NCBI RefSeq assembly: GCF_947492555.1 | Contig: NZ_CANLNE010000003.1 | Span: 62,001 to 126,000 of the forward strand | Reading direction: 5' to 3' | From: an uncultured Roseobacter sp. | GTDB lineage: Bacteria > Pseudomonadota > Alphaproteobacteria > Rhodobacterales > Rhodobacteraceae | DNA length: 64,000 nt | Shown here: one piece after another, positions 14,913 to 27,581 of the stretch | Position numbering within the stretch: position 1 is the first letter of the stretch | Layout of the letters: each line of letters opens with the position of its first letter | Translations under genes and position numbers: made by a program | Notes under the pieces: generated by a model | The model's database searches: none | Seen by the model: the letters and a program-made list of their open reading frames with translations, nothing else | What the model was told of the DNA's origin: nothing

Positions 14913-16205
14913 TCAGCCGCCGGGGGTCAGCTTGTAGATCGTGCCTTCGTCGATGGATGTGTAAAGACTGCCATCCGGCCCCATGACAACCGAGCGGAAG
15001 CGTCCCGACTCCATGGGAAGGGTCATCTCCGTCACGTCCTCGACGTCCGTGTTGTCGTCGTTGAACTGTATCACGTCGATCCGCTGACCGATTGGTGTTC
15101 CGCCAAAGCCAATGCCCATAATCCCGACGACCATCGCGCCGTCCCAGTCCCCCCAGGCGTCCCCTTCGAGAAAGGCCGCTGATGAGGTGCCCTGCGACCA
15201 GCCGTTGTTGTTCCAGATCGGCGGCATCGCATCAGGGTAGGTGTCGAAGTCCGTCATCGACATGAAGGCGGCCCGCTCATAGCGGTTCATGCCGTCTTCC
15301 TGGTTCGGACTATACCCACAGTAATCGTCGGGGCAGTCGCCACGCCCTGCCATGTTAGGCCGCGGGTCCCATCCGGCGTTGCCGCCGTTCTGCAGGATCG
15401 TGATTTCATCGGAATGCCAGGGGCCGTGTTCTGCCGTGATCGCAGCACCTGTTTCCGGGTGAAAGGCGATACCCTGAACGTTCCGGTGGCCATAGGTGTA
15501 GGTTCTGGCGTCGAAACCGTCCGGCGGGCTGTTTTCAGCATTGGCGTTGCCGTCGGTATCAATACGCAGAACTTTGGAGCCCATCATCGTCGGGCTCTGC
15601 GGCACCTGGCCATTATGCGTATCGCCCGTCGTCAGAAAGAGGTGGCCATTTGCATCAAAACGCACGCGTCCGCCGTTGTGAGCACCGGGGCCACCGAAGG
15701 GATGGTTCGAGGCTGCCATCTTGTAGGGCACGTCATCGACAATATCCGTCCTGTCCGCGACGCCGGTGAAGTCCTCACTGAGCGTGAAACGCATCAGCCG
15801 GTTGGTGTGGGGGTCCGACATGTTGGACGTCGAATAGACGTAGATGCGGCGATTGCTATCGAAGTCCGGATCGAAGGCCACACCCATCATGCCTGCTTGA
15901 CCTTCGCAGAACAAATCCGAACCATTCGATGCATAGCCTTCGGTTTCACCGACACCGTAAAGCGCATTCACCGTGCCGTCTGGCAGGCGCACCGAAAGGC
16001 CTGAGCACTTCTCAGTGAACAGCATTGTGCCATCTGCCAGAAATGCCATGTCCCACGGATTATCCAAACCCTCGAGTACGACCTCATGTTGCAGGCTGGT
16101 GGTGTTCATTCCATTTTGTGCGAAGGCAGGCGACGATAGTAGAGCCGTGCCAGCAAGAAGCGCGGCACCCATCCGCAGTGCGGAAAAAGACGTGACGTGA
16201 GACAT
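14913..16205 (-). CDS. PQQ-dependent aldose/sorbosone-type dehydrogenase
   Basis: A 430-residue periplasmic protein of the glucose/sorbosone dehydrogenase beta-propeller family. Residues 1-29 form a signal peptide ending SSPAFA. Family features include LDNPWDMAFLADGTMLFTEK, FGGPGAHNGGRVRFDANGHL, LRIDTDGNANAENSP, YGHRNVQGIAFHPETG and AEHGPWHSDEI, the PQQ-site region. The ATG at 16205 is chosen over one at 16259 because GGAGGAAAT precedes it and the signal peptide starts there. The enzyme would oxidise sugars outside the cytoplasm and pass electrons on. The cytochrome c gene upstream is a possible acceptor. No pqq synthesis genes are in the window. Confidence 0.88.
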   Translation of the reverse strand: MSHVTSFSALRMGAALLAGTALLSSPAFAQNGMNTTSLQHEVVLEGLDNPWDMAFLADGTMLFTEKCSGLSVRLPDGTVNALYGVGETEGYASNGSDLFCEGQAGMMGVAFDPDFDSNRRIYVYSTSNMSDPHTNRLMRFTLSEDFTGVADRTDIVDDVPYKMAASNHPFGGPGAHNGGRVRFDANGHLFLTTGDTHNGQVPQSPTMMGSKVLRIDTDGNANAENSPPDGFDARTYTYGHRNVQGIAFHPETGAAITAEHGPWHSDEITILQNGGNAGWDPRPNMAGRGDCPDDYCGYSPNQEDGMNRYERAAFMSMTDFDTYPDAMPPIWNNNGWSQGTSSAAFLEGDAWGDWDGAMVVGIMGIGFGGTPIGQRIDVIQFNDDNTDVEDVTEMTLPMESGRFRSVVMGPDGSLYTSIDEGTIYKLTPGG

Positions 16206-16372
16206 GATTTCCTCCCAAAAATCGATTTGAAAGTCGACCGGGAAGGCCTTCCGGCTCATAGTCTGCCCAAGCCGACCGAGACGTTAACCATAGTTCTCGG
16301 TCCATCAACGGGTCAACGAATTTCTCGTTTGACTAGAGTCCCTTGGCGCAGCAGTACTTTCTGATTGTCGTC

Positions 16373-16744
16373 TCAGTCGAAGGCTGTGGCCACGTAGACG
16401 GAGATGTTGGCGATATCCTCATCTGAGAGTTTTTTTGCATGACTGATCATGAGAATGGAGTTCGGACCAATCTTCTTGCCGGACCTGTAGATTTTCAGCT
16501 TCTCCGCAATATACTCCGGCGTCTTGTCAGACAACTTTGGGTAGCTGGCTGCGCCCTGTGCCTTGTTCCCATGGCAGGCCCGGCACGATTTGCGAAATAT
16601 TTTTTCTGCCGCCTCCAAATCCACCACGTGCTCTACTGTCGAGGTGTCGGAGTCTTCGGCCGCCGCGTCAGTTGCATGATTGTCTGCCCGCGCTGCGAAA
16701 CCACAAATGATCATCAACATGGTCAGAACGCAGTTTCTCAGCAT
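16373..16744 (-). CDS. Small periplasmic cytochrome c
   Basis: A 123-residue class I cytochrome. A signal peptide (residues 1-20) is followed by an acidic linker and the heme-binding CRACH at residues 54-58. Met99 in GPNSILMISHAKKLSDEDI is the likely second iron ligand. The pattern KLSDEDIANISVYVATAFD is the usual end of cytochrome c553/c5-type proteins. It lies upstream of and on the same strand as the sugar dehydrogenase with a 167-bp gap, so it may carry its electrons; this is inference. Confidence 0.88.
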   Translation of the reverse strand: MLRNCVLTMLMIICGFAARADNHATDAAAEDSDTSTVEHVVDLEAAEKIFRKSCRACHGNKAQGAASYPKLSDKTPEYIAEKLKIYRSGKKIGPNSILMISHAKKLSDEDIANISVYVATAFD

Positions 16745-17121
16745 CAACACAATCCCTGTTGCTTGGTCGGCTTCAACCGTTCTAGACGGTCTTCTCGACA
16801 AGTCCAATGTTTCGTAATGATCGAAGGATGTCCCATTGCTTCGATTACTGCTGCTGCACGGGCAAGCAGCGAGCATTGCAAACGCGGCCTCGAACGGACA
16901 ATCGTGCTGGGCGCGTCGATCGACCGCTTGTTCCTGCCGTAGACAAATCGCGCTTGAACGTCCCCGCCACGCTTGGGCTCACCCCCGCGATACGATGGAG
17001 TGCAGCATGTTCTTGGCCACCTCAAAACTGTCCGCCCCCGCTGCCCGTTCCTGATATTCGTTGGAGCAAGCGCATTGCTGAAAGCTTCCGGGCTTACATA
17101 AAACAGCATATTGAAGTGGTC
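16745..17121. other. Intergenic stretch without a convincing gene
   Basis: About 377 bp between the cytochrome c gene and the response regulator gene, both on the minus strand. Open frames exist on both strands, but none has a ribosome binding site, a known motif or compositional support. It probably holds the cytochrome c promoter and decayed sequence. Confidence 0.4.
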
Positions 17122-17835
17122 TCATTTTGGATCGTAAAGGTAACCGATGCCGCGCACGGTTCTGATAACTTCGGGTTTTTCAGGGTTGGTTTCCAGTTTC
17201 CGGCGCAGTCGGGAGATTCTGATATCGACGCTTCGGTCAAACGGGTCCCAGGATCGGTCATGAGCTTGTTCCAAAAGCTGATCCCTGTTGAGAACGCGCC
17301 CCCTGTTTGCCGCAAAGACCTTGAGCAGACTATACTCCATCGCCGTCAATTGAACTTCGGACCCATCCGCCGCACGGAGCTTTGCGGCGACTTTGTCCAA
17401 AAGAAAATCTCCAAATGGAGCGCAGTCCCAATCAACCTTTTCCGCCTTTGCTGAGCTACTGATGGTTTCACGGCGAAGTATCGCTTTTATCCGGGCTTCG
17501 AGCTCTCGAAGATCAACGGGTTTGCCTAGATAATCATCCGCCCCCATTTCAAGACCAATGATACGATCAACCACGTCACCGGCTGCGGTCAGCATGATGA
17601 TGGGGGTCGTGTCCTCTGGGCGCAGTGATCGTAGAATGGAAAGACCATCTTCCTTTGGCATGTTGATGTCCATGATGATGACATCCACAGTATTGGTCGA
17701 CAGGATGTCCCGAAGTTCATCGCCACCTGCGGCTCCGGATACCTTGTATCCACGTTTGCCAAGGTATTCCTGGAGCATTTCACGCAGGTCGATTTCATCA
17801 TCGCAGACTAGGATGTGGGCATTCTGGCTATCCAT
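17122..17835 (-). CDS. OmpR/PhoB-family response regulator
   Basis: A 237-residue two-domain regulator. The receiver (residues 7-120) has acidic residues in CDDEID, phospho-acceptor Asp56 in IIMDINMP and Lys105 in GKPVD. The winged-helix domain (about 137-237) shows LTAMEYSLLKVFAANRGRVL and VDIRISRLRRKLE, ending TVRGIGYLYDPK. Its start lies 8 bp inside the end of the histidine kinase gene, so the two form a coupled pair. Candidate binding sites are the TGTTTCA repeats at 20093-20271; this is inference. Confidence 0.95.
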   Translation of the reverse strand: MDSQNAHILVCDDEIDLREMLQEYLGKRGYKVSGAAGGDELRDILSTNTVDVIIMDINMPKEDGLSILRSLRPEDTTPIIMLTAAGDVVDRIIGLEMGADDYLGKPVDLRELEARIKAILRRETISSSAKAEKVDWDCAPFGDFLLDKVAAKLRAADGSEVQLTAMEYSLLKVFAANRGRVLNRDQLLEQAHDRSWDPFDRSVDIRISRLRRKLETNPEKPEVIRTVRGIGYLYDPK

Positions 17836-20071
17836 CTGGCATTTCCTCCTGCTCGGCGAGTAGCTGTCTGACGAGGTCTCTGAGCTCTGCCGGCGAAACC
17901 GGTTTCTCCAAATATGGAAGGCCAGCCTCCTTTAGAAGTCCCAGGGAAGTCTGTCCCATCGTATCACCGGTGATATAGGCCGTCCTCTTCAACATCTCTG
18001 GAAAACGGGCCACCAAAGCTTCGTATATCTGGCGCCCGTCGACACCCGGCATGTTCAAATCACTCAAGAAAACGTCGTACCTGGTTGAGTGAAGGCGGTT
18101 TAACGCTTCCTCCCCTGAGGCGACGAAATCGACTTCGAACCCTTCTTTTCTGAGAATTTCGGCGTTCAACTGGCCCACTTCAACCTCATCATCCACAATC
18201 AGTGCTCTCAGGTTTGCAGGTGCCGTGACCGGGTTGGTCGGCGCGTCCACTTCTGATCTGTGATCACTGGCGACGGGGAGCGTGATACGAAAACATGTGC
18301 TGGCTGCGCTGCTCTGATCCAGCCTGATCTGTCCGCCATGCGAAAGAATGATCCGGTGGCAGAATGCCAGACCGATGCCAGTTCCCTCGCCGACTTCCTT
18401 GGTGGTGAAAAAAGGCTCAAATATCCGCCCCCGAATGGCGGTGGGAATGCCGGGGCCGTTGTCTTGAACGGTCACTTCGACCATGCTCATCTCCGGCTTT
18501 GAGATGGCCGACAGTTCAATGCGATCGCCACGACCAGACGCGTTCAAAGCCTGTTCGGCGTTGATGATCAGATTAATGATAACCTGCGTAATCTGATCCG
18601 CATCGGCGGCAATAGGTGGCAGATCTTCCGGAATCTTGAGCGAAATACTGATGTCACCTGACGTGCTTCCATAGGCAGCGACATCTGCAGCCGTTTCGAT
18701 CACGCTGGCAACATCAACTGGCTCGATCTTGCTTGGCTGCTGGCGTGCCATGGCAAGGAAGGTCTTTACGATCTTGGCACACCGCTCTGCTGCTGTACTG
18801 ATCTTGTCGATCCTTGCGGTGAGATCAGGATCTGTGATCTCCTCTTTCAGCATCAGCGAATGACCTACAACAACGGAGAGGGGGTTGTTGAGCTCATGGG
18901 CAACACCGGCAAGCAATTCACCAAGTGCGGACATCTTTTCATTCTGGAACAGCAACTCTCTTTGCTTCGCAAGCTCTTCAGAAAGCGCCAATTCATCCGT
19001 CAAATCGCGTGTGTTTGAGACGATGACTTCTTCGCCATTGAATTCTATGAGGCGCGAGGAATCCGCCCCCCAGAACTTTCGCCCCTTTGCATCAATGAAC
19101 TCCATCCGCCGATCCTTGAGCGTCCCGGCCTTTCGCAGGTCTTCAAGATAGCGCTCGCGCTCTGTTGGGTCCGCATAGTAGGATTTGGAATTGTTGGACG
19201 GGCCAAAAAGCTCCTCAAGATCTGGCGTCGCAAAAAGAACTTTCCCGGTTTCTGCGTTCGTCATGTTAATGGCGGCCGGATAAGCTTCCATGACTTGCCT
19301 GATGAGCGCGTCAGTTTCTTTTTGGACGGTTAGATCAATGGTACTGGTCACGATGACTTCTTCGCCCTTGAAATCGATCAACTGCGAAGAAATGGTCGCT
19401 GGAAAAATGTTTCCGTCAGCATTCAATAGATCAAGTTTGAAGTCATCCACACGTCCATCCGCCAAAAGCTGCGTGACAAAATCTGCCCGGCGCTCCGGAC
19501 TGACATAATGTTCCCGCGCAGACTTGGTGGGTCCAAACATCTGCAGGGCGGCAGGTGTGCGGTAAAGAATCTGACCATCACCGATACGGGCCATGGTGAC
19601 CGCGGCAGAACTGGCGTCCAGCACTTTTCTGATCAGAAGATCCCCGTCGCGTTCCTCGACCTCGGCTTGTTTTCTGGCTGTGATATCCTCGCGGGTTACG
19701 ACAAAGCCGCCTGAGCAGGTCGGGTGAACAGACACCAGATAGGTCCGCCCGTCCGTTTCTTTCAGTTCAAAATCCTGAATGAACTCGATGCCATTGGCCA
19801 ATCTGTCAGAAACCCATTTCTGTTCATCGCCCACAGCATCGGCATATATTCCGCGGCGGGCTGTCTCGCGCATCAGTATTTCCCAGTCCAGACCGGGTTT
19901 GAGGAGATGGGAAACCCCTTTGTTCATCTCGGCATATTTTTGATTGAACATCACAAGGCGCCGGTCGTCATCGTACAGGGCGAATCCTTCCTTAAGAGAC
20001 TCGATAGCGTCCCGCAGAAGGCCCTGCGCATTGTCGATGTCTTCCAGATCGTTCGTCATGCCCGTCGTCAT
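17828..20071 (-). CDS. Cytosolic hybrid histidine kinase with three PAS domains and a receiver
   Basis: A 747-residue sensor without membrane segments. Order: PAS-type domain 1 (about 15-135), PAS 2 (148-250), PAS 3 (258-360), dimerisation/phosphoacceptor domain with His392 in GVAHELNNP, ATPase with QVIINLIINAEQAL, VQDNGPGIP and GEGTGIGLAF, and a receiver (623-740) with Asp671 in FLSDLNMPG. PAS 2 and PAS 3 look alike (TISSQLIDFKGEEVIVT against ADSSRLIEFNGEEVIVS), which suggests an internal duplication. The ligand is unknown. The gene overlaps the response regulator gene and diverges from the hydrolase gene at 20319. Confidence 0.93.
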   Translation of the reverse strand: MTTGMTNDLEDIDNAQGLLRDAIESLKEGFALYDDDRRLVMFNQKYAEMNKGVSHLLKPGLDWEILMRETARRGIYADAVGDEQKWVSDRLANGIEFIQDFELKETDGRTYLVSVHPTCSGGFVVTREDITARKQAEVEERDGDLLIRKVLDASSAAVTMARIGDGQILYRTPAALQMFGPTKSAREHYVSPERRADFVTQLLADGRVDDFKLDLLNADGNIFPATISSQLIDFKGEEVIVTSTIDLTVQKETDALIRQVMEAYPAAINMTNAETGKVLFATPDLEELFGPSNNSKSYYADPTERERYLEDLRKAGTLKDRRMEFIDAKGRKFWGADSSRLIEFNGEEVIVSNTRDLTDELALSEELAKQRELLFQNEKMSALGELLAGVAHELNNPLSVVVGHSLMLKEEITDPDLTARIDKISTAAERCAKIVKTFLAMARQQPSKIEPVDVASVIETAADVAAYGSTSGDISISLKIPEDLPPIAADADQITQVIINLIINAEQALNASGRGDRIELSAISKPEMSMVEVTVQDNGPGIPTAIRGRIFEPFFTTKEVGEGTGIGLAFCHRIILSHGGQIRLDQSSAASTCFRITLPVASDHRSEVDAPTNPVTAPANLRALIVDDEVEVGQLNAEILRKEGFEVDFVASGEEALNRLHSTRYDVFLSDLNMPGVDGRQIYEALVARFPEMLKRTAYITGDTMGQTSLGLLKEAGLPYLEKPVSPAELRDLVRQLLAEQEEMPDG

Positions 20072-20092
20072 CCCGATTTTCTAAGACAGCAT

Positions 20093-20271
20093 TGTTTCAA
20101 TGCCATTTCAAAATTCGCATCTAGTGTTTCAATTGTTTCACAGGCTGCTGCGCCAAACCAGAGACAGCAAAAAAATCCCATATTTTGAAGGTTGCTGGCG
20201 GGGGATCAGGTGAAACTGGTCGTGCAACAACTGAAACACGGCACGCCTCATTCAGACATCGCAATGAAACA
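20093..20271. promoter_or_regulatory. Five TGTTTCA/TGAAACA repeats in a divergent promoter
   Basis: The heptamer TGTTTCA occurs at 20093-20099, 20125-20131 and 20134-20140, and its reverse complement TGAAACA at 20232-20238 and 20265-20271. The first three sit near the kinase start, the last two near the hydrolase start, with mirrored orientation. Such a cluster in about 180 bp is far above chance. The response regulator of the adjacent gene pair is the obvious candidate binder; this is inference. Confidence 0.6.
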
Positions 20272-20318
20272 ATCGGACGCCAATTGTCGTTCACCACCAA
20301 CGCTTTTGGATTAGAACA

Positions 20319-21158
20319 ATGACCTTTTCATCTCAGCCAACGCAACAAGGCAATGCGCCTATTGTTGCATTGCATTCCTCGGCATCAAGCAGCGGCCAAT
20401 GGAGCCGATTGTCAGCGGATATGGAAGGCCGGTTTGACGTCCATGCATTTGATCTTCCCGGCTACGGGCGCGCGCCTTTGAGCGCCGATCATTCTCAGAA
20501 AGGGGCCGCCCGTTCCGCTGTTCCTGTTCTTCAGGAAATCGAAAAGATAGGGGGGCCCGTTCACCTTGTCGGCCACTCAAATGGAGGTGGCATTGCGATC
20601 AAGGTGGCATTGATGCGCCCTGACCTCGTGAAAAGCCTGACCGTCTATGAACCGGCAACGTTCCACTTTCTGAAGAATGGAAACAGCAAGGAAAAGCGCC
20701 TGTTTCAGCAGATCCAGACCCTTTCTGCTCTGGTGACACGTGCAGCAGAGGAAGAAGAAGTACCGACGGGAATGCGGCACTTTCTGGACTTCTGGAATGG
20801 TGAGGAGTTCTGGGACCAACTTCCCGACGTCGCCAGGCAGCGGTTTGCGGGCATGATCTCTTCGATCATGGCAGATTTCTCCAACGGAGTCGCGGAAACC
20901 TGGGAATTGGCAGATTTGTCCAAATTGGAGACGCCGACATTGGTGATGACGGGTCTGGAGTCCCCGGAAATCACGCAGCATGTGTCGATCGCCATTGCAA
21001 AGGCGCTTCCCAACGCACGCCTCGCACTGTTGCCCGAACTTGGACATATGGCGCCCGTCTTCCAACCAGAGTGGGTGAATTCACGCATTCTCGAACACGT
21101 GGCCAACGTTGAACGGCCCACCCCAATCTGCAGTTGGCCAAACCAGGTGGCGGCCTAA
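20319..21158 (+). CDS. Alpha/beta hydrolase of unknown substrate
   Basis: A 279-residue alpha/beta-fold hydrolase. LHSSASSSGQW follows strand 3, the nucleophile Ser87 lies in VGHSNGGG, and the late His is in ELGHMAPVFQPEWVN. The usual acid position reads TGLESPE, so Glu may replace Asp. The protein lacks a signal peptide and is cytosolic. It is followed after 74 bp by a methyltransferase gene and faces the two-component genes, which suggests common regulation through the repeats at 20093-20271. Carboxylester hydrolase is the broad guess. No substrate can be named. Confidence 0.85.
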   Translation: MTFSSQPTQQGNAPIVALHSSASSSGQWSRLSADMEGRFDVHAFDLPGYGRAPLSADHSQKGAARSAVPVLQEIEKIGGPVHLVGHSNGGGIAIKVALMRPDLVKSLTVYEPATFHFLKNGNSKEKRLFQQIQTLSALVTRAAEEEEVPTGMRHFLDFWNGEEFWDQLPDVARQRFAGMISSIMADFSNGVAETWELADLSKLETPTLVMTGLESPEITQHVSIAIAKALPNARLALLPELGHMAPVFQPEWVNSRILEHVANVERPTPICSWPNQVAA

Positions 21159-21232
21159 CCCAACCACATTCACCCGACCCAACAATTTACAAAACGCTGG
21201 TGATGGACCAGCAAACCCCAAAGGAGAAAATC

Positions 21233-22063
21233 ATGGGCTCTCACACAACAATCAATCCTTCAACCGACTACACGGCGATCAAAGCCAAGCAAAACGCCGC
21301 ATGGGGGGCAGGAGACTACAGCAAAGTTGGCGTAACCCTCCAGATCACCGGTGAAGAACTTGCCGAAGCCATGGACATAAATGCAGACGCCAAGGTTCTG
21401 GATGTGGCAGCGGGCAATGGTAACGCAACGCTGGCCTTTGCACGGCGCTTTTGCAACGTCACCTCAACAGACTATGTATCGGAGCTTTTGGAAGCCAGCG
21501 GCACGCGCGCAAAAGCCGAAGGTCTCTATGTCAACTACAAGGTTGCCGACGCAGAAGACCTGCCATTCACAGATCAGTCTTTTGACGCGGTCGTATCCAC
21601 TTTCGGGGTGATGTTCACGCCAAATCAACAGCAGGCAGCCGCAGAGCTTCAACGCGTCGTCAAACCCGGTGGCAAGATCGGGATGGCCAACTGGACACCG
21701 GAAAGTTTCATCGGCCAGCTCTTCAAAACAATCGGAAAGCATGTTCCACCGCCTGCCGGCGTCGGCTCTCCTGCCTTGTGGGGCAACCAGGAGTGGGTTG
21801 AAGAAACCTTTGGCGCCACTTGCCAAATATCTTCCTTCCAGCACAAGACCTTTTTGTTCCGCTACCGCTCTGCTGAGCATTTCCTGGAGTACTTCCGCGC
21901 CTTCTATGGCCCCATGCAAAAAGCGTTCGAAGCGCTGGATGAGGTCGGGCAAACAGCCCTGCGGAACGATATCATGACGCTGATTGAGACGTTCGACATC
22001 TCAACCAACGGTTCATTGTGTATCTCTTCAGAATATGCCGAAGTGATCGCAGTGCGTCACTAA
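21233..22063 (+). CDS. Class I SAM-dependent methyltransferase
   Basis: A 276-residue methyltransferase of the UbiE/Methyltransf_11 type. Motif I VLDVAAGNGNATLAFA is at residues 55-70, the acidic end of strand 2 in TSTDYVSELL, motif II in DAEDLPFTDQSFDAVVSTFG, and motif III in RVVKPGGKIGMANWTPE. The ATG at 21233 is selected for its AAAGGAG site; the open frame continues upstream without one. The C-terminal 110 residues (LFRYRSAEHFLEYFRAFYGP) likely define the substrate, which is unknown. It follows the hydrolase gene and may modify the same kind of compound. Confidence 0.87.
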   Translation: MGSHTTINPSTDYTAIKAKQNAAWGAGDYSKVGVTLQITGEELAEAMDINADAKVLDVAAGNGNATLAFARRFCNVTSTDYVSELLEASGTRAKAEGLYVNYKVADAEDLPFTDQSFDAVVSTFGVMFTPNQQQAAAELQRVVKPGGKIGMANWTPESFIGQLFKTIGKHVPPPAGVGSPALWGNQEWVEETFGATCQISSFQHKTFLFRYRSAEHFLEYFRAFYGPMQKAFEALDEVGQTALRNDIMTLIETFDISTNGSLCISSEYAEVIAVRH

Positions 22064-22219
22064 GGTCATGATCTCAAATCACAAATCCCTTCGGCGTTTC
22101 AGCCGGGGGGCGCACTCATGTTGCGGGCGGTAGACAGGCTTAACTTGGTCAAAAAGAATTTGTAGTCTTTGGCCGGGGTGAGGCACTTTTGATCCTCCTC
22201 AACACGAAAGGAACCTACA

Positions 22220-22579
22220 ATGGCTGAACGCACGCTCTATGAAGAGTATGGGGGGTTTTCAAAGGTCAGCAAGATTGTACTTTCCTTCTACGACAGCCTT
22301 TTGGACAATGATGAGGTAGGCCCGTTCTTCGACGATGTTGAAATGTCTCGGATCGTGGATCACCAGACCAAGTTCATTGCTTCGATCCTTGGTGGCCCGG
22401 CGTCCTACACAGACAATCAGTTGCGCCAATTGCATTCTCATCTGACCATCACCGACGGCCATTTCGATGAACTCGAAACGGTGCTTCGCGGCACATTATT
22501 GCAGCATGGGATGGCCAGTGAGGACGTTGACCTTGTTGTTGCGGAATTCGAGAAACGCCGCCCCCTTATTGTCAGGTGA
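22220..22579 (+). CDS. glbN: Group 1 truncated hemoglobin (trHbN-like)
   Basis: A 119-residue cytosolic heme protein with the 2-over-2 globin fold. Aligned by eye with Mycobacterium trHbN: Tyr24 is the B10 distal residue (LSFYDSLL), Gln49 matches the E11 glutamine (DHQTKFIASILGGP), and His72 is the proximal ligand (RQLHSHLTITDGHF). Group 1 proteins with Tyr B10/Gln E11 bind oxygen tightly and oxidise NO to nitrate. The ribosome site AAAGGAA is strong. Only 3 bp separate its stop from the adenylate cyclase start, so the two are almost certainly one operon. This globin could be a detoxifier or the heme sensor for the cyclase. Confidence 0.93.
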   Translation: MAERTLYEEYGGFSKVSKIVLSFYDSLLDNDEVGPFFDDVEMSRIVDHQTKFIASILGGPASYTDNQLRQLHSHLTITDGHFDELETVLRGTLLQHGMASEDVDLVVAEFEKRRPLIVR

Positions 22580-22582
22580 GTT

Positions 22583-23605
22583 ATGACTATTGAAGCGATA
22601 AACGAGCAACTTCTCCGTGCGATCGGGGTTGGTGTCGCGCTACTCGACCGCCAAACGCTGCAGTTCGGCTTCCGAAACGATACGTTTGAAGAGTGGTTCA
22701 GTGCCGAAACTCAGCCAGCTCAACTGCAGCAATTGTTCCCGGACCTGGACGTCAGCGCGATGCAGGAAAACCTGACCGGATCCGGACGTTATGCATCCGA
22801 AATCAGGTTCAAGAAGAAACGCAGAACGCTGGTGATTGCCCTAGATTTCACCGCCGCGGATGAGGACGTCCTTGTCCTGGTCTGTCAAAACATCACGCGC
22901 ATTAAAGAACTGGAATCGATGATCGATTCCTATTCGATGATGGTTGAACGCAACACGCGAGAAATCAAACGAGAGAAAGAGCAGGTTGAAAAATTATTGC
23001 TCAATATCATGCCTCGCTCTGTATACGAGGAGTTCAAGACCTTCGGTGTTGTAACGCCGCAGATGTATGATCCGGTGTCCGTCCTGATGCTCGACTTTGT
23101 CGGGTTTACAGATATGGTTGCGTCGCAAGACCCCAGCGTGACCGTCACCGAACTGAACGATATCTACAGTGCGTTTGACCGCATCGGCGAACAATTCGGG
23201 TGTGAGCGCATCAAGACGATTGGTGATGCCTATATCACTGTTGCAGGCCTGCCTGACCCCACCCCGGATCACGCAAAGGCAATCGCCAACACCGCCATCC
23301 GGTTTGTGCGGTATTTGACGCGGCGCAATCTGAGCCATCCGCATCAGTGGCACTGCCGTATTGGCCTGTCCACAGGTTCAGTTGTTGGCTCTGTTGTGGG
23401 CATCCAGAAGTATGTCTATGATATTTTCGGTCCTGCCGTGAACCTCGCCTCTCGCCTGCAAGAGTTTTCTGAACCGATGCAAATCACAGTCCAGGACGAT
23501 GTTGCAACTGTTCTGAAAGACCAGTTTGATCTTGAGAATGTTGGCGCGCGGACCATCCGCGGGTTTAGCAAGCAAGATGTCTGGCGGCTTTCCGACAGCA
23601 ATTGA
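22583..23605 (+). CDS. Class III adenylate cyclase with PAS-like sensor and signalling helix
   Basis: A 340-residue soluble cyclase. Residues 1-110 form a PAS-like domain, 110-150 a coiled signalling helix (KREKEQVEKLLLNIMPRSV, close to that of soluble guanylate cyclases), and 160-335 the catalytic domain. All key residues are visible: metal-binding Asp171 (MLDFVGFT) and Asp215 (TIGDAYI), base-selecting Lys211 and Asp280 (KYVYDIFG), transition-state Asn287 and Arg291 (NLASR). The Lys/Asp pair indicates ATP as substrate, so cAMP is the product. As both base and catalytic residues are in one chain, a homodimer would have two active sites. It sits directly behind a truncated hemoglobin gene. Confidence 0.93.
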   Translation: MTIEAINEQLLRAIGVGVALLDRQTLQFGFRNDTFEEWFSAETQPAQLQQLFPDLDVSAMQENLTGSGRYASEIRFKKKRRTLVIALDFTAADEDVLVLVCQNITRIKELESMIDSYSMMVERNTREIKREKEQVEKLLLNIMPRSVYEEFKTFGVVTPQMYDPVSVLMLDFVGFTDMVASQDPSVTVTELNDIYSAFDRIGEQFGCERIKTIGDAYITVAGLPDPTPDHAKAIANTAIRFVRYLTRRNLSHPHQWHCRIGLSTGSVVGSVVGIQKYVYDIFGPAVNLASRLQEFSEPMQITVQDDVATVLKDQFDLENVGARTIRGFSKQDVWRLSDSN

Positions 23606-23832
23606 AATCAACGGTGAATTTCAGGCTTTAGTCGAGGGGCAGATTTGATTTTTGGGACTAGGGCCCGATACAGTAGATTTGCTGGTAAATTGGCCAGCCC
23701 GATGCATATCTTGGAAGGGTGCCGCAGCCACGCAAAGCTGGAGTTTCGGATTCAGCACGGACATCCAATGGTTTTGGTCGGTTAATGGTTTCCAGCCCTT
23801 GGCAGAATTCACGCCTGTCGACGATCTTTAAC

Positions 23833-24714
23833 TTAAGTAAGTTGACCCGGCTTCACCTGGCGCAACCATTTCAAAAATGCGCGCTGAGGGGAATGCATCT
23901 TGCGATCCGAGGGCCAGACAAGCAGGTAGGCCTGTGTTTTGCAGCTTTGATGTCCAATCCGATGAAGGCGGCCATCGGACAATGCCTCCAAACAGAGCGG
24001 CGTGCGTGCCATGCCGATCCCCAATCCGTTGACGACTGCGGCTTGCACCTGATCGTAAGAACTCAAGCGACGTATCTTCGCATATCCAGGCAAAGGCGAT
24101 TGGGCTTGCACACTCCATCTTTCCCATTCATCTTCATGCGCTTCATTCAAGATGATCGGAAATCTTCGAAGCGCCTGATCCCATCCAATTTGAGCCACTT
24201 GAGCGCTCAATTCTTTTGTTGCCACCGGGAATATCTCTTCGAGACAAAACAATTCCTGATCGTATCCACTCCACTCGGCGTCACTCCTGCGCAGCGCGAG
24301 ATCGACCCCTTCGTTTTTTAGATCACAAACCCGATCGGTGGCGAACACCCGGAGTTCGACAGTTGGATTTGCCTCATAGAATGCAGCCAAATTCGGCGCG
24401 AGCCAAAGCGACGACAAAGTCTGCGGCGCGGAAATCGTGACCACGTTACTTTTGCTGTGTTTGACAGCTTTTAGCCCGCGTTCAATTTCTCGCAGACCAA
24501 CGGAAACTTGTAAGTAGAATGCCCGCCCGACATCCGTAAGCTTTGCCCCGTTCCGGCCCCGCTCCAACAACTGAACGCCCAGCTGCGCTTCCAAGCGCGC
24601 AATCTGATGACTCACAGCTGACTCGCTCACGCCGATTTCTTCAGCCGCTATCCGAAACTGACCCGCGTCGGCAACCGTCACAAAAGCACGCAGGTTCTGG
24701 ATGGGCGGATACAT
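23833..24714 (-). CDS. LysR-family regulator (GcvA-like)
   Basis: A 293-residue LysR regulator of the GcvA-like branch. The HTH is in FRIAAEEIGVSESAVSHQIA with RLEAQLGVQLLERG, and the effector domain follows (VVTISAPQTLSSLWLAPNLA). Conserved branch features include DLALRRSDAEW and AVVNGLGIGMARTPLC. The ATG at 24714 has AGAGGA upstream and fits the family N-terminus YPPIQNLRAFV. It is transcribed away from the hydrolase gene at 24808 across 93 bp, so it probably controls that gene and itself. Confidence 0.9.
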   Translation of the reverse strand: MYPPIQNLRAFVTVADAGQFRIAAEEIGVSESAVSHQIARLEAQLGVQLLERGRNGAKLTDVGRAFYLQVSVGLREIERGLKAVKHSKSNVVTISAPQTLSSLWLAPNLAAFYEANPTVELRVFATDRVCDLKNEGVDLALRRSDAEWSGYDQELFCLEEIFPVATKELSAQVAQIGWDQALRRFPIILNEAHEDEWERWSVQAQSPLPGYAKIRRLSSYDQVQAAVVNGLGIGMARTPLCLEALSDGRLHRIGHQSCKTQAYLLVWPSDRKMHSPQRAFLKWLRQVKPGQLT

Positions 24715-24807
24715 GACAAATCCTCTTCTAAAGATGACAACACTTCGTTCGACATAAAAGAAAACAGGGTTCACCTATGCAAAAAATAATCATGATGAGA
24801 AAGTAAT

Positions 24808-25641
24808 ATGACGGAATTTGACCTAAAGCAGAGCTTTGAATCGAGCTGTGGAAAGATCGCTCATGATGTGTTCGGCGAGGGTCCAGATGTGGTTTTGGTC
24901 CATGGCACCCCCGTGAGCTCGGTGATCTGGCACGGAGTTCTCAAGCGTTTGCAACATCGCTATCGGTTTCATGTACTTGATCTGCCCGGATATGGTTCGT
25001 CGGCCAAGTTTGACGGCCAAGAAGTTCGGCTGAGGTCGTTCGCGCGCGTGTTGGCCGAATGGCTCGCCTCTAAGGAGCTATCGCGCCCCGCTCTGGTTGG
25101 TCACGATTTTGGTGGTGCGACTGTGATGGGCGCGTATCTGATCGAGAAGGCGGATGTGGCAGCTATTTGTGTCAGCGATGGCGTTGTGTTGTCTCCCTGG
25201 GGCACGGCATTTTCGAGACATGTGAAAGAGAACGAGGAGGTCTTCGCCAACGTGCCGGAGTACATCCACCACGCGGTTCTGGAGGCACATCTGAAAACAG
25301 CGATGTCACGCACTCTGGATCAAGCAGTTCTGGACAGGTTGACTGCACCCTGGTTGAGCGAAAGCGGTCAGCGCGCATACTATCGGCAGGTTGGCCAATA
25401 CGATTATGAATACACTGAACAGCTCGAACAATTGTATCCGACTACCTCAGTTCCGACTACAGTCTTCTGGGGTGAAGAAGATCGTTGGGTCGACAAGTCG
25501 GAAGGGGAACGGTTTTCGCAAATGTTGCCCGATGCAACCCTAAGAATCTTGCCGGATGCCGGCCACTTTGTGATGCTTGATGCCCCGGGCCTCTTCTCAA
25601 GATATCTGGATGAATGGTTGAGTGCATTCTTTCATGTGTAG
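24808..25641 (+). CDS. Alpha/beta hydrolase with Asp nucleophile (haloalkane dehalogenase/epoxide hydrolase-like)
   Basis: A 277-residue hydrolase. The oxyanion region is VHGTPVSSVIW, the nucleophile elbow is GHDFGG with Asp100 in place of Ser, and the late residues are in WGEEDRWVD and DAGHFVMLDAP. An Asp nucleophile is found in haloalkane and fluoroacetate dehalogenases and in epoxide hydrolases, not in esterases. The halide-binding Trp next to the nucleophile of typical dehalogenases (HDWGG) is Phe here, so the exact reaction is open. It is divergent from a LysR gene, which suggests induction by a substrate-like compound. Confidence 0.87.
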   Translation: MTEFDLKQSFESSCGKIAHDVFGEGPDVVLVHGTPVSSVIWHGVLKRLQHRYRFHVLDLPGYGSSAKFDGQEVRLRSFARVLAEWLASKELSRPALVGHDFGGATVMGAYLIEKADVAAICVSDGVVLSPWGTAFSRHVKENEEVFANVPEYIHHAVLEAHLKTAMSRTLDQAVLDRLTAPWLSESGQRAYYRQVGQYDYEYTEQLEQLYPTTSVPTTVFWGEEDRWVDKSEGERFSQMLPDATLRILPDAGHFVMLDAPGLFSRYLDEWLSAFFHV

Positions 25642-25793
25642 TCGACCTCGCCTTCCTTGTGGCACGTATCGTTTCTCGCCTTGGGGAGATCTGGGTGGTA
25701 CCCTGCTTTAAAAATCCGCGCCCTTGTTTCATGGGTCAATTAATTCAATAGAACCAATGTGTTTTGTGCGGTTTGCGGCTGTGACAAGCCTTG

Positions 25794-27581
25794 CTACAAG
25801 GGCCATACGATAAGGATCATGGGTATACTCACAGCCACGATGAGCACCTCCAAGGGTAGCCCCATACGCCAATAGTCGCCGAAAGAATATCCACCCGCAG
25901 ATAGAATTAACGTGTTGTTCTTGTGCCCGATGGGCGTAAGAAACGCGGAAGAGGCCGCCACCGCTACGGCCATCAGGAACGGATCGGGTGACACATTCAG
26001 GCTCTGCGCCATCTGGATGCCAACGGGCGCGGCCACGATTGTTGTTGCCGTGTTGTTGAGCACATCTGACAGGGTCATCGTCACGATCATCAATACGGTG
26101 AGGACAGCCCAGGCGGGCAGTCCGCCGGTCCAGGAGACAAGCGCGCCTGCGATCAATTCGGTGCCGCCGGAGCTTTCCAGCGCCGCGCCAAGGGGGATCA
26201 TCGACCCCAGGAGTACCACCACCGGCCAGTTGATGTGATCGTAAAGCTCACTGAGCGGGACAATGCGGGTCAGGACGTAGGCAACGACCACCAGCCCCAG
26301 CGCGATAGGCAGGTAAAGCAGCCCGACGCTGGCTGCGGCCACGGCTGCGGCAAAGAGGCCTATCGCCAGCCAGACCTTCCGGTTTTCGGTCACAGCCAAT
26401 CCGCGGTCGGCCAGCGGTAGGCATCCCAGCCAGTCGGTGACATCCGGTCCGGTGTCGCGGGGCACCAGCAGCAGCAGGATGTCACCGGTTTTCACAACCG
26501 TCTTGCGCAGATGTTTGGTGATCCGCGTGCCCTGGCGCGAAATGCCCAGAAGCACAGTGCGCTGCCGCCATGCGAGACCGATGGATTGCGCCGTCTTGCC
26601 GTGGATGCGCGCGGCTTCCGGGACTACGACCTCGATGATCTCGACGCCTTCGCCATCGGCGCGCAGGGCCTCTTCGCGCTTGGCATCGGCCACGGCAAGA
26701 TCAAGACTGGTGCGGAACTCGTCCAAGGCATCAGGTGTTGCTTCCAGAACCAGTGCGTCACCCGCCTGCAGCAGCGCATTCCGGGCCTGACCGTAGCGGC
26801 GCTTGCCATCGCGGATGAGACCGAGGATGGCCACATCCGCCTTGTCCGCCGCGTTATCCAGTTCCGCCAGACGTCTGCCAAGGTGCTTGCTGTCCTCGGG
26901 CACGGTCAGTTCGGCAATGTATTGCGACAGGTCCGCTTCCGGGGTTGTTTGCGTTGTGTCTTGTGGAATGAGCCGCCAGCCGATCAAGGCCACGAAAATC
27001 AGGCCTGCAATGGCTGCGGCCCCGCCGACAGGGGCAAAGTCGAACATCGCAAAAGGCGCGCCCAGAGCCTCCTCGCGGATCGACGCAATGATGATATTGG
27101 GCGGCGTGCCGATCAAGGTGGCCATGCCCCCGAGGATGGTGGCAAAGCTGAGCGGCATCAGGCTGAGCCCCGGCGCGCGGCCCGCTTTGCGCGCGGTTTG
27201 AATGTCCACCGGCATGAGCAGGGCAAGGGCCGCGACATTGTTCATGAAGGCGGAAAGCACCCCGCCGATGGCGCCCATCAGGGCTATATGGGTGCCCAGG
27301 GAGCGCGTCGCATCTACCAACGTACGGGTGATGAGGAAGACTGCTCCGGAGCGCACAAGCCCGGCGGAAACCACAAGAACAAGGGCCACTACCAGCGTCG
27401 CGGGATGCCCAAAGCCGGAAAACGCATCCCCGGTCGGGACCACGCCCAGAACCACACCGACCATAAGGGCGGTAAAGGCCACGATATCGTACCGAAAGCG
27501 CCCCCAGAGCAGCAGCGCAAAGACAGCCCCAAAGAGCGTGAAAAGGATAATCTGATCTGTTGTCACGGGGGCCTGCTCCAC
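25794..27581 (-). CDS. SLC13-type anion permease with RCK_C domains (second copy type)
   Basis: A 595-residue inner-membrane carrier with the same layout as the permease at 11955-13763: permease half, two RCK_C domains (about 210-295 and 305-390, GDALVLEATPDALDEF and GDILLLLVPRDTG), and second half. Signatures are FMNNVAALALLMP with MATLIGTPPNIIIASI and VLNNTATTIVAAPVGIQMA with TPIGHKNNTLILSAGGYSFG. Family members take up sulfate, sulfonates or dicarboxylates with sodium. The two copies are clearly different in sequence, so a recent duplication is unlikely. Confidence 0.88.
   Translation of the reverse strand: MEQAPVTTDQIILFTLFGAVFALLLWGRFRYDIVAFTALMVGVVLGVVPTGDAFSGFGHPATLVVALVLVVSAGLVRSGAVFLITRTLVDATRSLGTHIALMGAIGGVLSAFMNNVAALALLMPVDIQTARKAGRAPGLSLMPLSFATILGGMATLIGTPPNIIIASIREEALGAPFAMFDFAPVGGAAAIAGLIFVALIGWRLIPQDTTQTTPEADLSQYIAELTVPEDSKHLGRRLAELDNAADKADVAILGLIRDGKRRYGQARNALLQAGDALVLEATPDALDEFRTSLDLAVADAKREEALRADGEGVEIIEVVVPEAARIHGKTAQSIGLAWRQRTVLLGISRQGTRITKHLRKTVVKTGDILLLLVPRDTGPDVTDWLGCLPLADRGLAVTENRKVWLAIGLFAAAVAAASVGLLYLPIALGLVVVAYVLTRIVPLSELYDHINWPVVVLLGSMIPLGAALESSGGTELIAGALVSWTGGLPAWAVLTVLMIVTMTLSDVLNNTATTIVAAPVGIQMAQSLNVSPDPFLMAVAVAASSAFLTPIGHKNNTLILSAGGYSFGDYWRMGLPLEVLIVAVSIPMILIVWPL

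Follow-up and report, generated by a model that had tools for sequence, protein, structure and literature searches.

A group 1 truncated hemoglobin encoded beside a PAS/S-helix class III cyclase in Alphaproteobacteria is probably a separate gas or redox sensor of its neighbor

Truncated hemoglobins are widespread and mostly lack an agreed physiological role. Several systems have been described in which a heme protein governs a signalling output. In globin-coupled sensors, which are defined by a fused 3/3 globin (PMC1457004, in part), heme and output are carried by one chain, as in the globin-controlled histidine kinase AfGcHK (PMC8697598, in part) and the globin-controlled soluble adenylate cyclase HemAC-Lm of Leishmania (PMC12755159, in part). 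H-NOX and NosP proteins are stand-alone heme sensors acting on the product of an adjacent gene, either a histidine kinase or a diguanylate cyclase/phosphodiesterase, and soluble guanylate cyclase (sGC) harbors PAS, coiled coil and cyclase in this order. HbN of Mycobacterium tuberculosis and the cyanobacterial GlbN display the 2/2 fold, the GG motifs, Tyr B10, Gln E11 and His F8. The truncated hemoglobin gene glbO of Roseobacters was placed beside nitrogen-metabolism genes, which is a different setting (PMC4319818, in part). Among the literature matches listed, mostly without subscription papers, no paper was recognized by title or abstract start as dealing with the pair described here or with an operon of a truncated hemoglobin and a class III cyclase.

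The locus analyzed here lies in a stretch of 64,000 nucleotides from an uncultured Roseobacter sp. (the whole stretch is called the window), where a truncated hemoglobin gene is followed by a gene for a PAS, signalling helix (S-helix) and class III cyclase protein, as shown in Table 1. The analysis suggests that the globin is probably a separate gas or redox sensor of the neighboring cyclase-like protein. Like the globin-coupled sensors, the locus would place a signalling output under a heme globin; however, its globin is of the 2/2 group 1 (Bac_globin) family and has its own gene, with a stop codon between the two. It resembles the H-NOX and NosP pairs in having a stand-alone protein encoded beside its effector in a conserved pair, the heme being read from sequence, but differs from them in the globin heme fold, in a class III rather than a GGDEF cyclase and in the one-to-one tie to a single type of partner. 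By analogy, the pair would work like the H-NOX/NosP pairs and like an sGC with the heme domain cut off, while being a member of neither.

Table 1. Features of the globin-cyclase locus in the window
Feature	Position	Strand	Remarks
OmpR-type response regulator, adjoins kinase gene	17122..17835	-	Cluster in 34/80 loci
Hybrid histidine kinase, PAS domains-HisKA-HATPase-REC	17828..20071	-	747 aa; domain matches
Alpha/beta hydrolase	20319..21158	+	Cluster in 34/80 loci: 27 intact, 7 degenerate
SAM-dependent methyltransferase	21134..22063	+	Frame opens at TTG; true start probably further in
Sigma-70-like promoter candidate, TTAACT - 17 nt - TAGTCT	22140..22168	+	Upstream of globin; read by eye
Group 1 truncated (2/2) hemoglobin, proposed heme sensor subunit	22220..22579	+	119 aa; Y24 (B10), H48 (E10), Q49 (E11), H72 (F8)
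PAS - signalling helix - class III nucleotide cyclase	22583..23605	+	340 aa; catalytic set complete
PAS-like domain, cyclase residues 5-104	22595..22894	+	Weak PAS_8 match and helix/strand order of the model
Signalling helix / coiled coil, cyclase residues 105-159	22895..23059	+	Most conserved part of the cyclase
Cyclase catalytic domain, residues 160-336	23060..23590	+	Guanylate_cyc match

The globin matches Pfam Bac_globin with an E value of 7e-14 (52.5 bits, cut-off 21) and reaches only 14.4 bits with PF00042 Globin (cut-off 22), and its closest solved structures are those of M. tuberculosis GlbN/HbN (phmmer against the PDB, E 2e-13). Alignment with HbN pairs Y24 with Y33, Q49 with Q58 and H72 with the aligned His, positions which we take to be B10, E11 and F8 of the helix nomenclature. 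The preliminary description had named a group 1 truncated hemoglobin with these three residues, and both the profile score and the HbN alignment agree with it. G11 G12, G58 G59, Y24 and H72 are invariant in the cyclase-linked globins, as expected of group 1 truncated hemoglobins, and Y24, Q49 and H72 are kept in 88/88 of the linked rows compared, with L048, L086, L092 and L093 set aside. The residue H48 is aligned with HbN K57, which precedes Gln58 (presumably E11), and is therefore assigned to E10. It was observed in 90/90 linked globins, against 5/38 unlinked alphaproteobacterial globin domains, and it belongs to a set of ten (Y10, F13, S17, D47, H48, T50, K51, A61, D102 and R113) found in 85–90 of the 90 linked and in 0–5 of the 38 unlinked domains. 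The unlinked set was drawn from 40 globin stretches, excluding L125-L127 (no profile match) and L161 (a linked pair); two of its loci have two domains each, and long CheA-type frames contain some of the 38. These family-specific residues, together with the one-to-one tie to a cyclase, separate the linked globins from HbN and GlbN, for neither of which do we know of such a tie.

Tyr B10 and Gln E11 form the usual ligand-stabilising pair. A distal ligand may be furnished by a His or Lys at E10, and hemoglobins of Synechococcus and Synechocystis have been observed in a hexacoordinate state (PMC4720485, in part). H48 at E10 suggests a heme with an internal ligand in place of an open pocket, and a self-ligated heme that has to be opened by an incoming ligand would be expected of a switch. 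The same invariant His E10 (H48, 90/90) and His F8 would also fit a redox-switching bis-histidyl heme (PMC4720485, in part), so that the globin might be a constitutive structural subunit or redox sensor which binds the PAS/S-helix protein and for which a gas ligand is irrelevant. This is decidedly unlikely in our judgement, given the invariance of Tyr B10 and Gln E11 (88/88), which points to an exogenous ligand.

Other truncated hemoglobins were encountered in the searches. The globin at L160:1531-1989 (-) closely resembles the cyclase-linked type (linked-globin profile, E 4e-39), has no cyclase within the 3.4 kb read and adjoins the alpha subunit of a Rieske ring-hydroxylating dioxygenase. 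Truncated-hemoglobin domains were also located within CheA-type kinases at L129:396-3395 (-) and L138:2-2620 (-), which carry Hpt, globin, dimerisation, HATPase and CheW domains, with REC in L129 and two globin domains in L138, and several other alphaproteobacterial genomes harbor Bac_globin within open frames of about 1000 aa. To judge by their domain sets, such CheA-type kinases are a second route by which 2/2 globins have entered signalling.

The C-terminal domain of the window cyclase matches Guanylate_cyc with an E value of 4.5e-44. Class III adenylate cyclases carry two metal-binding Asp, a Lys/Asp pair for adenine, which indicates ATP as the substrate, and Asn/Arg for the transition state. 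The window protein maintains this six-residue set (D171, K211, D215, D280, N287 and R291), as the preliminary description had said, and the predicted output is cAMP. The N-terminal domain gave a PAS_8 match below the cut-off (E 0.037), and the AlphaFold2 models display a PAS-like helix/strand order, a long helix and the cyclase fold. The helix had been likened to that of sGC; in line with this, HNOBA matches residues 92-149, against the end of the profile only and below the cut-off (20.0 bits against 23.4), and the phmmer matches to sGC subunits that include the helix begin at residues 92-109. The scan with domain profiles detected no H-NOX family match in the cyclase, as had been expected for a protein without its own heme-NO-binding domain. 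The best ten Foldseek matches are all sGC chains, with a close fit in the cyclase domain and poor superposition over the whole chain (TM 0.29-0.38, rmsd 19-34 Å). The protein thus shares its domain order with sGC but differs from it in lacking H-NOX, in an HNOBA match confined to the helical end, in the Lys/Asp pair for ATP and in a heme domain that would act in trans.

A scan of genome contigs with the cyclase yielded 105 confirmed loci, of which 80 were examined (51-99% identity). A globin of the same family lies immediately upstream on the same strand in 80/80 of these loci, which were found by the cyclase alone, and in the window; the scan began from the cyclase and is silent on globins without one, and the locus L048 is cut by a contig end. 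The 80 loci belong to Rhodobacterales, Hyphomicrobiales, Sphingomonadales, Kiloniellaceae and other alphaproteobacteria. Across the class, 289 alphaproteobacterial genomes were sampled, and a near full-length relative of the cyclase is present in 13 of them (E 4.4e-81 or better; G027 and G208 with stops in the cyclase frame, G165 matched from residue 48 on), and a globin adjoins it in all 13. A further 44 weaker cyclase matches in the 289 genomes were compared by eye with the globin coordinates and none is near a listed globin; 17 of them were also searched as loci, with no globin within about 1.5 kb in any. Among 398 genomes of the phylum, which are a sample, the three matches at E 1e-8 or better all fall inside the class.

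The strongest test is co-occurrence, because each gene was searched for independently, with profiles of the linked globins (A4, E 1e-15) and of the N-terminal half of the cyclase (A1, E 1e-12). Of the 198 family genomes searched, each from a different genus, 15 carry both genes, none carries only one and 183 carry neither; each profile matches 16 genes, and 16/16 pairs are adjacent on the same strand. The Fisher p value is 8e-23 with kinship ignored, and all the counts over loci and genomes include shared descent. Since both profiles were built from pairs, distant lone globins or cyclases of this type could escape them. Conservation of the pair had been set beforehand as a test by which the idea could fail, and it held in all of these samples. 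By these sequence comparisons the pairing is not due to chance, and the partnership looks obligate. One genome harbors two globin-cyclase pairs about 0.23 Mb apart (G773:C6:1142411 and 1369609).

In the window, the gap from the end of the globin to the start of the cyclase is 3 bp, as first described, with both genes in the same frame and a TGA between them. A total of 92 pairs (the window, L002-L080 and L082-L093) were compared; globin and cyclase share the strand in all of them and are -11 to +33 bp apart in 86. The six off-range pairs are L086 and L092, three pairs at 61 bp and one at -74 with a doubtful start. L086 and L092 are distant pairs with stop codons in the cyclase frame (one TAA, and one TAG plus one TAA, respectively), and their cyclases are, to judge from these frames, decayed or misassembled copies. 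No globin-cyclase fusion was found among the 92 pairs, in which the two are always separate open frames, so that contact between the proteins draws no support from a natural fusion. Globin and cyclase were also modelled with AlphaFold2 as one chain through the TGA (461 aa) and as a shorter globin-PAS-helix chain (280 aa). The domains fold well, but with pTM values of 0.45 and 0.42, respectively, no confident arrangement of globin and cyclase was obtained, and hence no interface can be claimed. Co-inheritance is compatible with a partnership without contact, too.

The evolutionary tree of globin, PAS and helix (L048, L086, L092 and L093 omitted) mixes the orders. Ruegeria L028 and Seohaeicola L031 are found among Hyphomicrobiales and Kiloniellaceae, and Novosphingobium, Croceicoccus and Qipengyuania fall inside a mainly rhodobacterial group. 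One pair is located on the Novosphingobium plasmid pLA3. The two genes seem to travel jointly by horizontal transfer, since the distribution is patchy and the tree mixes orders. In the window, the G+C content drops to 0.52-0.54 over 16-26 kb (16001-26000), being mostly about 0.6 elsewhere and also low (0.515) at 1-2000. The stretch 16001-26000 contains the kinase, regulator, hydrolase, methyltransferase, globin and cyclase genes, a LysR gene and a second hydrolase, and is probably an acquired island by its composition. The pair may form its own transcription unit, starting from the promoter-like block of Table 1, and the TGTAGTCT part of this candidate recurs in 9/16 aligned upstream regions. 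An FNR/Dnr-type box, TTGATCCTCCTCAA, upstream of the window globin was dropped; a score of ≥9/10, which arises in 0.27% of shuffles, was reached in only 2/91 upstream regions, and the box was therefore judged not conserved. The genome from which the window comes has one Bac_globin match, four Guanylate_cyc matches and 16 cNMP-binding matches (one with an internal stop), and readers of the cyclic nucleotide could be among the latter.

Substantial variation was observed in the catalytic residues of the linked cyclases. Asn287 and Arg291 are both kept in 51 of 91 (the broken L092 left out), and one or both are lost in 40; all six catalytic residues are present in 49/91, and Lys211 is replaced by Arg in 30/89. 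The residue-losing cyclases fall mainly into one group of 37, called degenerate here, whose label includes L067. In the tree built from the globin and the input half only, 36 of them (L048 is not in the tree) make up one side of a branch with 100/98 support, and L029/L030 and L043 stand apart from the group and from each other. By this placement, catalytic residues were lost at least three times, namely in the group just described, in L029/L030 and in L043. The L043 cyclase (L043:6001-7050) differs from the intact L034 at 19/350 residues, two of which are the catalytic Asn, altered by a two-base codon change, and the catalytic Arg, altered by a one-base change; this looks like a recent, possibly selected loss of activity. 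The degenerate cyclases are probably pseudocyclases. Activity is possible in class III cyclases despite unusual residues.

The loss seems to be confined to one half of the protein. Mean identity to the window's proteins is higher in the degenerate group (37) than in the outgroup (14) for the S-helix (91 vs 68%), PAS (54 vs 33%) and globin (57 vs 47%), but not for the catalytic domain (64/60 vs 67/64%) and the tail (20 vs 30%), which argues that the output half is freer; the corresponding values of the intact group (37, including L029, L030 and L043) are 96, 70, 73, 93/89 and 63%. Constraint thus seems to have been lost in the output half alone, with the input half kept. The degenerate members might instead be half-cyclases that are complemented by a cyclase encoded elsewhere in the genome, a view for which the retained metal-binding aspartates (D171 88/89, D215 89/89) speak. 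The base-selecting Asp280 is kept as well (89/89), so these proteins are not simply C1-like, and the examined flanks of the 40 degenerate loci contain no second cyclase; we regard this alternative as very unlikely. A neighboring second cyclase forming a heterodimer was rejected as a general answer: a further cyclase match occurs in only 3/80 loci (L011, L019 and L035), and their linked cyclases are all intact.

The same loss bears on what the globin does. It had been suggested at first that the globin might only protect the cyclase or its signal from NO, and this reading is weakened, because a catalytic residue is lost in 40/91 cyclases while Y24, Q49 and H72 stay invariant (88/88). More broadly, the globin could be an enzyme, an NO dioxygenase or peroxidase, that clears the surroundings of the signalling proteins of NO or reactive species without signalling itself; the Tyr B10/Gln E11 pocket is that of HbN, among the nearest solved relatives, which is described as a potent NO dioxygenase (PMC3493545, in part). 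Such an enzyme would need neither a one-to-one tie to one cyclase (15/15 genomes) nor a pocket kept where the cyclase has lost its catalytic residues, H48 at E10 suggests a self-ligated heme instead of an open pocket, and D47, T50, K51 and R113 are near-invariant in linked globins only. We consider an enzymatic role unlikely, and continue with the globin as a sensor.

In most loci the pair is not the whole module, because a PAS/HisKA/HATPase histidine kinase is found near 71/80 (65/80 by neighbor clustering alone, the rest after a profile search), where the density of kinases in the genome of the window (25 HisKA matches in 4.44 Mb) would give about 0.07 per 13 kb. The window kinase, on the minus strand, ends 2.1 kb before the globin. 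Of the 40 intact loci, 32 have a kinase of its type (57-83% identical), encoded on the opposite strand at most about 4 kb upstream of the cyclase; among the remaining eight, the flanks of L008, L022 and L080 are short and those of L036, L074, L076, L077 and L079 are not. The arrangement differs in the degenerate group, where a kinase is encoded immediately downstream on the same strand in 36/37 (all but L067), its ATG lying within 20 bp of the cyclase end in 29 degenerate loci; immediately after the intact cyclases, no kinase was found in any of the 40 loci. The downstream kinase of the degenerate group is shorter, with one PAS domain fewer (three scanned), and carries the H-box HELNNP in 36/36. 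Eight degenerate-group loci with it also carry the upstream type, L029, L030 and L043 have the upstream type only, and a kinase is present near 39/40 loci with a lost catalytic residue. Among the distant pairs, no kinase match was detected in 12-20 kb around L112-L115, L117, L120 and L121, and L111, L116, L118 and L119 have a kinase at 1-8 kb that is not directly downstream. On account of these seven and four pairs, the globin-cyclase pair is probably the older core of the module.

The metabolic neighbors also differ between the intact and the degenerate groups. Intact loci harbor the hydrolase (27/40) and the methyltransferase (28/40), the latter cluster occurring in 28/80 loci, every one with an intact cyclase. 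Of the 40 degenerate loci, 19 have the FAD-dependent oxidoreductase cluster c7 and 18 have c8, which also occur in 3 and 1 intact loci, respectively. On pLA3, a single strand carries, as annotated, in order OsmC, two FAD oxidoreductases, the truncated hemoglobin, the cyclase-domain protein, an ATP-binding protein, a response regulator and two PLP enzymes, and its cyclase has Ile and Gln at the catalytic Asn and Arg positions (read by eye). OsmC, FAD oxidoreductases, a PLP-dependent enzyme and a PLP decarboxylase recur near many degenerate pairs (L169:6356-16702 and clusters c6, c7, c8, c11 and c12), and from its composition this set is a possible biosynthetic or detoxification pathway controlled by the sensor. 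FAD-dependent oxidoreductases, which accompany the pair in roughly half of the degenerate loci and on pLA3, and the Rieske dioxygenase adjoining the L160 globin would suit a globin that serves the metabolic enzymes of the cluster, by supplying O2 to FAD and Rieske oxygenases or protecting them, with the cyclase or kinase only regulating the cluster. However, the window and most intact loci have the hydrolase and methyltransferase and not those oxygenases, and the cyclase is the sole neighbor present every time, which makes service to the metabolic enzymes highly improbable.

Returning to the globin as a sensor, the sequences themselves show that globin and cyclase are inherited together and lie side by side, that the globin has residues specific to its family, that catalytic residues were lost and that a kinase is linked. 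The reading that we moderately favor is that the globin, made from its own gene, is the heme-sensing subunit of the PAS/S-helix cyclase, with a pseudocyclase-to-kinase relay in the sister group. Binding of NO, O2 or CO, or a redox change, would displace the distal His E10 and shift the E helix; through contact, this movement would reach the PAS domain and the coiled coil, by which the dimeric output domain would be gated. According to one proposal, the S-helix holds downstream domains inactive until the upstream domain changes (PMC1592074, in part). Where the active site is intact, the output would be a cyclic nucleotide, cAMP for the window, and in the sister group a pseudocyclase that still binds nucleotide would relay its state to the histidine kinase encoded downstream. 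Direct transfer of the signal from globin to cyclase in trans, as first proposed, is what we infer, and the same goes for contact and ligand, the direction in which the signal runs, the loss of activity and the substrate. That one split globin sensor has had its output swapped, giving cAMP in one branch and signalling through a dead cyclase, a kinase and a response regulator in the other, is a tentative extension to which we give slightly less than an even chance, and we hold its component, the pseudocyclase as an adaptor between globin and kinase, to be just as tentative. A dead diguanylate cyclase domain is present in HnoD of an H-NOX/kinase pathway (PMC8738867, in part), and by analogy HnoD is a precedent for a pseudocyclase in a chain from heme sensor to kinase. 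Compared with the trans-acting heme sensors, the new elements suggested by these loci are the sensor family, the one-to-one partner and the exchange of output, the last of which was not found among the literature matches listed.

The one-to-one tie of a truncated hemoglobin type to a signalling protein makes a sensing role directly testable. If the proposal is true, the pair would be a bacterial counterpart of soluble guanylate cyclase with the heme domain as a separate globin, and its relatives would form a natural series leading from a second-messenger enzyme to a pseudoenzyme adaptor for a histidine kinase.
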